Source of the DNA: Alphaproteobacteria bacterium
Lineage (GTDB): Bacteria; Pseudomonadota; Alphaproteobacteria; Micropepsales; Micropepsaceae
Reading direction: 5' to 3'
DNA: 64,000 bases
NCBI GenBank assembly: GCA_025361185.1
Contig: JANYAR010000135.1
Coordinates: 1-64,000 of the forward strand
Shown: positions 1 to 1,608 of the stretch, piece by piece
How positions within the stretch are numbered: the stretch's first letter is position 1
Layout: every line of letters begins with the position of its first letter
The notes under the pieces: model-generated
Database searches by the model: none
What the model was told of the DNA's origin: nothing
The model's input: the letters and a program-made list of their open reading frames with translations, nothing else
Position numbers and translations under genes: made by a program

Positions 1-509
1 TCACGATACGCCCACAGCTTGGCTGCTTTTTGTTCGTCACCGCCGGCGCCCGCAGCCAGATAGGTCGCCAAGGTCCATGGCGCGCTGGCAAAACCCAGCA
101 ATGCCGTGCCGTCTGGCAACCCGGCCCGTGTCAACCGCAACGCTTCGTAGACCGGCTCGAAATAAGCCGCCCACCGGACGCGATCCTCAATGAACCCACT
201 AGCCGATGTCACCGGGCTCAGGCTGGGGCCTTCGCCCTCGGTAAAGATAACCTTCTGGCCCAGGGCTTCGGGAACCGTCAGAATATCGGAAAACAGGATT
301 GCCGCGTCAAAGCCAAACCGGCGGATGGGCTGCAGGGTAATTTCGGCCGCATATTTGGGCGTGAGCGCCATCGCCCAGAACGAACCGGCTTCTGCCCGCA
401 GCTTGCGATATTCCGGCAGATAGCGCCCAGCCTGACGCATCAACCAGACCGGCGGCGTCTTTTGCGCAGCGCCGCTTAGGACATTCATCAACTTCGAAGC
501 ACTACTCAA
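1..509 (-). CDS. hemE: Uroporphyrinogen decarboxylase (5' part only)
   Basis: HemE decarboxylates uroporphyrinogen III to coproporphyrinogen III in cytosolic haem synthesis. Only the first ~170 codons are in the window; the 3' end lies off the left edge. The translation carries the family signature PPVWLMRQAGRYLPEYR and then the conserved FDAAILFSDILTVPEALG block. The first ATG is at 488, but an AGGAG at 516-520 sits 6 nt before an in-frame TTG at 509. That start adds seven residues (MSSASKL) and brings the distance to the signature closer to other alphaproteobacterial HemE proteins, so TTG is preferred; 488 is the alternative. The gene diverges from ppsR across a gap that resembles the hemE-linked origin of other alphaproteobacteria. 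Confidence 0.93.
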   Translation of the reverse strand, partial: MSSASKLMNVLSGAAQKTPPVWLMRQAGRYLPEYRKLRAEAGSFWAMALTPKYAAEITLQPIRRFGFDAAILFSDILTVPEALGQKVIFTEGEGPSLSPVTSASGFIEDRVRWAAYFEPVYEALRLTRAGLPDGTALLGFASAPWTLATYLAAGAGGDEQKAAKLWAYR

Positions 510-786
510 ACAAGACTCCTAAGGAATCTAAGATGATGAAGATGATGTTAGGCCTGTGGGTTGTGGGCCAAACTGTGCAAGCCGTTTTGGCTTAAGCGAA
601 GGCGCGTACAGACTCAAGCACTTGGATGAAATACGGCTTTCGGGACGGCTGGCCATGCTATGTTGGCGCTTAGGGCTAAGCGTCCCCAAACCATACGGGT
701 TTGCACTTTCTTCCATTTTTCGGCATGGAGCCTGTGTCCTGTTCCCGTCTTAATCCCAGCCCTGTTGCTCAATCCGGATAACTTCT
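510..786. other. hemE-ppsR intergenic region, candidate chromosomal origin (oriC)
   Basis: This 277-bp gap lies between divergent hemE and the DUF299/RP001 homologue, the gene pair that brackets the replication origin in Caulobacter and is conserved at other alphaproteobacterial origins. It is less GC-rich than its surroundings. Visible motifs are three GANTC methylation sites (514, 524, 611) and TGTGGGTTG/TGTGGGCCA at 555-570. TGTGGACCA at 786-794 is an 8/9 match in reverse complement to the Caulobacter G-box TGATCCACA. A TCCCCA W-box core lies at 683-688. A 7-bp inverted repeat CGCTTAG-GG-CTAAGCG lies at 667-682, with a related CTTAAGCG at 592-599. No canonical TTATCCACA box was found. Origin function is inferred from gene order and weak motifs. 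Confidence 0.5.
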
Positions 787-1608
787 GTGGACCAAAAATT
801 TCACATCCACCTCGTTTCGGATTCCACCGGCGAAACCCTGCATGCCATGGCCAATGCCGCGCTGGCCCAGTTCGACGATGTGGACGTCATGGTCCACCCC
901 TACGCTTTGGTGCGGGCAGAAGCACAGTTGAGCCGAGCCCTGGATCACATCGCCATCATGCCGGGCATGGTATTTTTCACACTGGCCAACCAGGGTCTTC
1001 GCGACAGGCTTATGGCGCGCTGCCGGGATATCGAAGTGCGCTGTATCGACGTCTTGGAGGGGCCGGTCACCGCCTTGCGTCAATTCCTGGGCCAGGCGGA
1101 AACCCACAAGGTTGGCCGCCAGCATGAGGTGGACGCTCGCTATCTCGACCGGATCGAGGCCCTGAATTTCAGCATCGCCCATGATGATGGCCAGTCGCTG
1201 GACTCCATCGACGGTGCCGAAGTGATCCTGACCGGCGCCAGCCGGACATCGAAGACGCCGACCTGCGTCTATCTGGCCATTCGCGGTATTCGTGCCGCCA
1301 ATGTGCCCCTGGTGCCCGGCATGCCGGCGCCGCCGCAGCTTCTGGCTGCCCGGCGGCCGTTGATCGTGGGGCTGTGGGTGTCGCCGGACCGGCTGGTCCA
1401 GGTCAGGCGCAACCGGCTGACCAGCATGGGCGAAAACCGTCACAGCGACTATGTCGAGCCGGACGCGGTCCGGGCCGAAATTGCCGCCACCCGCCAACTG
1501 TTCGAAAACCAGGACTGGCCGACAATCGATGTGTCGCGCCGGTCCATCGAAGAAACGGCGGCGGCGGTCATGAACCTCTTGGCCGAGCGCAAGGAAGCCA
1601 ACGCGTGA
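787..1608 (+). CDS. ppsR: PEP synthase / PPDK regulatory kinase-phosphorylase (DUF299)
   Basis: The 273-residue product is a DUF299 (Kinase-PPPase) protein. The family inactivates and reactivates PEP synthase or pyruvate phosphate dikinase by ADP-dependent phosphorylation and Pi-dependent dephosphorylation of a threonine. Seen here are the N-terminal HLVSDSTGETL motif and the P-loop GASRTSKT at about residues 150-157, followed by the family-typical TPTCVYLA. Length is normal. GTG is the start; no strong ribosome binding site precedes it. The stop overlaps the GTG of maf. This is the RP001 homologue that marks the right side of alphaproteobacterial origins. Whether the target is PPDK or PEP synthase cannot be told from this window. 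Confidence 0.93.
   Translation: MDQKFHIHLVSDSTGETLHAMANAALAQFDDVDVMVHPYALVRAEAQLSRALDHIAIMPGMVFFTLANQGLRDRLMARCRDIEVRCIDVLEGPVTALRQFLGQAETHKVGRQHEVDARYLDRIEALNFSIAHDDGQSLDSIDGAEVILTGASRTSKTPTCVYLAIRGIRAANVPLVPGMPAPPQLLAARRPLIVGLWVSPDRLVQVRRNRLTSMGENRHSDYVEPDAVRAEIAATRQLFENQDWPTIDVSRRSIEETAAAVMNLLAERKEANA

Follow-up and report, generated by a model that had tools for sequence, protein, structure and literature searches.

In Caulobacter, the chromosomal origin between hemE and the COG1806 gene is described as experimentally established, and the origin has likewise been placed there in Rickettsia (PMC1914354). Weak G- and W-boxes have been described for Cori, the Caulobacter origin (PMC4468827). 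In the basal unwinding system (BUS, made up of DnaA boxes and DnaA-trios) of Bacillus subtilis and Helicobacter pylori, boxes are reported to load DnaA onto triplets, and the rule given for this system requires a box with at most two mismatches to TTATCCACA and, no more than 16 bp from it, three or more NAN triplets (PMC8287927). In Helicobacter the middle base of the trio is described as strictly conserved, and opening is reported to stop when the trio is disrupted or its polarity reversed (PMC8235120). Trios that lack the middle adenine have already been the subject of speculation (PMC8287927).

The window analysed here covers bases 1 to 64,000 of contig C84 (total length 65,006 bp), from an assembly of 182 contigs with 3.53 Mb and 5.9% contamination. 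As the preliminary description had reported, hemE and ppsR (RP001, COG1806) diverge around a less GC-rich gap of 277 bp (510-786, with 51% GC vs 63% in the window; Table 1). Positions 510-552 have 37% GC, and the AT-rich stretch listed in the table ranks fourth in lability among the separate 40-bp segments of the 64 kb. The start codon of hemE is a TTG at 509, which is the same in most relatives. The terminal 437 bp of another contig of the assembly (C169) are 96% identical to window positions 1-437, within hemE, and represent either two strain variants or contamination of the bin.

The gap had been proposed to be the chromosomal origin, and this is supported by the conservation of a sequence block, its independence from hemE, its near-opposition to dif and a switch in KOPS polarity. 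We posit that the gap is very probably oriC, at the hemE-COG1806 position of Caulobacter. It shares with Cori of Caulobacter crescentus the flanking genes and their orientation, the AT-richness, weak candidate DnaA sites of G and W type instead of canonical boxes, and GANTC sites, with CcrM (N6_N4_Mtase plus RAMA) and GcrA encoded in the same genome. Unlike Cori, the gap contains no TTAA-N7-TTAA CtrA site (510-786, read by eye) and is not classed as a CtrA-controlled Cori; TTAA itself occurs 22 times in the 23 aligned genus gaps in which hemE adjoins ppsR, the window included, compared with 15.5+-3.8 after shuffling. The gap is also half as long as two Caulobacter gaps (531 and 533 bp), in line with the shorter length remarked on before. 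Further differences from Cori are that the genus profile has no match in Caulobacter loci, and that the boxes and the triplet tract adjoin hemE, with dnaA far away in G028, the sole single-contig genome of the genus (4,640,907 bp). Judged from its sequence, the gap appears to be a short member of the known hemE-COG1806 origin class without the CtrA signature, and it is the gap itself that is newly placed there.

Table 1. Features of the putative origin locus, given in window positions
Feature	Position	Strand	Basis or remark
hemE, 5' part	3..509	-	PF01208 (URO-D), E 9.4e-51; runs off contig start
Proposed conserved origin block, ~115 bp	510..624	+	Sequence model, once per genus genome
AT-rich, readily melted stretch, candidate DUE	511..550	.	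Nearest-neighbour stability
GANTC (CcrM target)	514..518	+	Overlaps probable hemE Shine-Dalgarno
GANTC	524..528	+	Found in part of genus
Triplet tract GATGATGAAGATGATG, trio-like	532..547	+	530-549 majority identity 0.85 in 23 gaps
Putative weak DnaA box 1 (TGTGGGTTG on the plus strand)	555..563	-	All 29 aligned blocks share the TGT core
Putative weak DnaA box 2 (TGTGGGCCA on the plus strand)	562..570	-	Most of the 29 blocks keep the core
GANTC within conserved GACTCAAG	611..615	+	Part of the second well-kept patch (610-629; majority identity 0.67)
TCCCCA, W-box-like	683..688	+	Retained in nearest relatives
ppsR / RP001 / COG1806	787..1608	+	PF03618 (Kinase-PPPase), E 7.3e-87; GTG start at 787

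The model of the block has exactly one match (E<1e-3) in each of the 37 genus genomes, and every match lies upstream of ppsR at a distance of no more than about 300 bp. Its training sequences came from 26 of these genomes. The 11 genomes outside the training set (G007, G009, G010, G018, G019, G020, G024, G025, G026, G032 and G033) all match, G009 and G025 weakly (E 2.7e-4 and 7e-6). In the 23 genus gaps the column majority is 80-85% over 510-569 and 67% at 610-629, with about 50% in the remainder. An earlier profile, built from hemE-type loci only, had no match at E<1 away from ppsR loci in 2.06 Mb of DNA. Across the class, 12 of 240 genomes match the genus model at E<=0.01, four of them from the genus, so that the model misses most of the class. 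Six loci of the eight non-genus matches were examined, and three of these lie at hemE (G080, G178 and G149, all weak matches). Two contigs titled Bordetella and Acidobacteria (L158, L165) carry a ppsR of alphaproteobacterial type and are probably mis-named bins.

CcnA lies near the Caulobacter origin. Since it is a reported Caulobacter noncoding RNA (PMC8959179), the gap could by analogy mainly encode a small RNA whose conservation is what we see, which we consider very unlikely; an Rfam search of 1-1700 gave no family near the cut-off, and its one weak match (E 0.09) lies inside ppsR.

The relation of the block to hemE can be read from a natural experiment, in which the loss of hemE with the block retained separates the origin sequence from hemE regulation. 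hemE is absent from seven of the 30 genus ppsR loci read (L012, L013, L015, L016, L019, L025 and L026), where hemH (ferrochelatase) adjoins the gap, as assigned by Pfam for three loci and by resemblance for the other four. All seven keep the block, weakly in L012 and L013, and the relocated hemE genes of these genomes lie elsewhere without it. The block stays when hemE goes and does not travel with it, and it therefore belongs to the place and not to hemE. The relocated HemE proteins (L242-L248, seven genus members) are only 54-57% identical to the window HemE, which suggests a replacement by a foreign or an old paralogous copy.

It could be argued that the block is a mere promoter or leader, serving the leftward haem operon (hemE-hemH), ppsR or both, with the origin elsewhere. 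The block still precedes hemH after the loss of hemE, as an operon promoter would, and its retention, taken alone, is compatible with a promoter for what is left of the operon. In addition, GACTCCT at 514-520 overlaps the likely Shine-Dalgarno of hemE (AGGAG, minus strand, 516-520), but in the hemH-type loci L016, L025 and L026 the GANTC at 514-518 is kept as GAATC without AGGAG. The relocated hemE genes have no block, no sigma-70-like promoter was found at 400-900, and a promoter explains neither the tandem DnaA-box cores beside the triplet tract nor the near-opposition to dif and the polarity switch in G028. We regard this explanation as very unlikely.

The genome itself is in 182 contigs, and chromosome-scale tests were therefore made on relatives. 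A dif-like site, located with a pattern that we take to be that of dif, is present in 21 of the 23 genus genomes searched, as a single copy except for two in the fragmented G005; G013 and G021 had none, and a reversed control pattern had zero matches in the 23 genomes. This candidate, around CGTATAAGTNATATTATGGGAA (L264-L266), provides a ready terminus marker for the genus. In G028, where dif lies at 1.340 Mb and the block at 3.516 Mb, the two are separated by 0.469 of the circle, that is, the locus is roughly opposite dif as in origins of the hemE/COG1806 type. In three genomes of other families the distance between dif and ppsR is 0.447, 0.475 and 0.479, with 0.411, 0.179 and 0.427, respectively, between dif and dnaA; the dif of G047, which gives the 0.179, was assigned with three mismatches and a second site of equal score.

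An origin beside dnaA, as in many bacteria, is highly improbable according to these positions. dnaA of G028 (0.910 Mb) lies only 0.093 of the circle from dif, as it does at 0.179 in G047. In favour of such an origin, there is a long AT-rich stretch upstream of dnaA in G000, and the cumulative GC skew of G028 has a local minimum at ~0.9-1.4 Mb, in the region of dnaA and also of dif (1.34 Mb). A better cluster of DnaA boxes next to dnaA had been named as a finding that would speak against the gap; of nine dnaA upstream regions, seven lack any DnaA-box-like site at up to one mismatch.

The polarity of KOPS-like motifs in G028 points to the region of the hemE-ppsR gap as well. There GGGNAGGG, the E. 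coli KOPS consensus, is directed from the block towards dif on both arms (13+/51- on one, 49+/15- on the other; Fisher p=2e-10 over 40 20-kb stretches). Switch points estimated without the block lie at about 3.6 Mb for 8-mers whose training regions were no farther than 0.9 Mb from dif and at 3.73-3.95 Mb for KOPS alone, ~80-430 kb off the block, which sets the resolution at a few hundred kb. On the partial contig of G031 the counts are 10+/25- and 22+/15- (p=0.01), and a second KOPS form tried there, GRGCAGGG, was not significant (p=0.34). Nor was polarity significant on the partial contigs of G002 (3+/23- left, 2+/5- right) and G022 (1+/2- left, 12+/5- right). Contig C1 of G029 has the opposite signs to the left of ppsR (21+/9-); this contig is rearranged relative to G028, where its parts map to distant places. 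The same contig (L202-L221) shows a flip of KOPS polarity near 1.55 Mb, from a rearrangement or a chimeric join. The window itself has 6+/1-, as expected with a rightward fork. Gene-strand bias gave no signal (p=0.52).

GC skew, which had been put forward as a check of the origin, failed in the relatives on which it was run. Its sign in G028 is opposite to the usual one (p=0.007), and it is weak elsewhere. The test is unusable in this genus and would have argued against an origin call that we hold to be correct. As a locator GC skew was rejected, being weak, wrong-signed in G028 and without a fixed-sign difference between leading and lagging strand at fourfold sites. A consistent inversion throughout the genus was also considered and dropped, as G029, G002 and G022 have no significant inversion. 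GC skew has been described as insufficient for the origin in several alphaproteobacteria (PMC1914354).

All motifs listed in the preliminary description were found at the positions it gave, and they differ in what they contribute. The three GANTC sites compare with 0.41 predicted in 277 bp from the window rate (P about 0.008). Over the 23 genus gaps, whose members are relatives and not independent, GANTC occurs 64 times (22.6+-4.4 shuffled), TCCCCA/TGGGGA 23 times (4.2+-2.0) and TCCACA/TGTGGA 20 times (3.2+-1.8). The TCCCCA noted earlier thus belongs to a motif enriched in the genus gaps, and the pair of TGTGG type is likewise present and conserved in relatives. The absence of a canonical DnaA box holds, with none within one mismatch in 510-786; the DnaA-type sites in the gap are weak G/W-type ones only, of a kind enriched across the genus gaps. 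Two further motifs exist as described and lend no support to an origin. Sites like the 8/9 G-box at 786-794 number 14 in the window, where 10.5 would be expected; this one lies across the ppsR start codon and is not conserved in relatives. The window has 54 inverted repeats of the kind seen at 667-682 (7 bp), and that one is unconserved in the alignment of relatives. Both look like chance and should be dropped from the origin argument.

The likely core of the origin is the AT-rich, GANTC-bearing stretch with the triplet tract, next to the pair of weak tandem boxes. Read on the plus strand, the order is GANTC, AT-rich entry, GATGATGAAGATGATG, a short G-bearing spacer, and TGTGGGTTG with TGTGGGCCA. 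Box 2 has two mismatches to the Caulobacter G-box TGATCCACA, and in some relatives the core of the second box is TGTGGATCG or similar, close to that G-box. The layout recurs in Azospirillum gaps, there with a perfect TGTGGATAA, and this supports the view that the conserved CTGTG is a DnaA box. DnaA has an intact DnaA-box-binding domain. We propose that DnaA would bind the two tandem boxes and oligomerise toward hemE onto the C-poor triplet tract, and that the AT-rich stretch would then be melted for helicase loading. The W-box-like sites farther right may help assembly, and CcrM methylation of the GANTC sites may tune firing to once per cycle; the sites together with the encoded CcrM and GcrA suggest methylation-linked timing. 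We hold this unwinding scheme to be reasonably probable. The genus DnaA (L182:3235-4836) scores 135 bits to the Pfam ATPase domain vs 242 in G044, with a normal DNA-binding domain, and this low score may reflect a diverged domain III.

With the Bacillus orientation of boxes relative to triplets as reference, tandem boxes, short spacer, triplet tract and AT-rich stretch follow in the same order as in BUS, and the gap may work like it. The window has a run of six triplets (an approximate length), and at least three are found in 20 of 29 genus blocks. Unlike in BUS, the triplets are AAG/ATG in a G register, not TAG, with the middle A often replaced by T, and both window boxes have three mismatches to TTATCCACA, so that the gap is not BUS by the rule as given in PMC8287927.

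The triplet pattern of the genus is periodic, with a lag-3 identity of 0.438 in the 29 blocks (0.274+-0.017 shuffled), in a tract table of which several rows were anchored at a TGT lying upstream. Run lengths are approximate for the same reason, in the row of the window as well: a G at every third base in a run of at least four occurs in 25 of the 29 blocks, against a mean of 1.9 and a maximum of 6 in shuffles; for A, runs of at least three occur in 20 of the 29, compared with 8.9+-2.3 in shuffles (maximum 16). Non-canonical middle bases are seen in ATG, TTG and TGG. Thirteen tracts from other alphaproteobacterial hemE-linked gaps have the G run in 12 cases, against a shuffle mean of 1.9 and maximum of 6, and the A run in three (shuffle mean 3.7), a comparison that is suggestive only, since most had been chosen for a C-poor tract that precedes CTGTG. 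A C-free filter applied to 64 non-genus gaps let 12 through, and ten of these were used, together with L253, L254 and L261; L162, L172 and L255 (similar to L261) were left out as near-duplicates. As 52 of the 64 gaps failed this filter, the G-phased pattern is not universal. In sampled genome DNA, 179 of 931 CTGTG sites have a G run of at least four. It is possible, if rather doubtful, that hemE-linked alphaproteobacterial origins use a DnaA-trio variant whose register is marked by the third-base G on the TGTGG strand, with the middle A, described as conserved in Bacillus and Helicobacter, left free. The titles and abstract openings surveyed contained no description of a G-phased tract for alphaproteobacteria, and the third-base G in place of the canonical middle A, here and in some other alphaproteobacterial origins, is mildly novel.

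If G-phased triplets are a real grammar of origins, the DnaA-trio rule needs widening, and the DnaA of the hemE-linked class would read the triplet register differently. Beyond this, our analysis places the very probable origin for a whole alphaproteobacterial genus that is known here mostly from metagenome bins. The genus also supplies a case of GC skew that would mislead. With the position fixed, growth-rate estimates from read depth and the numbering of genomes can be anchored at the block.
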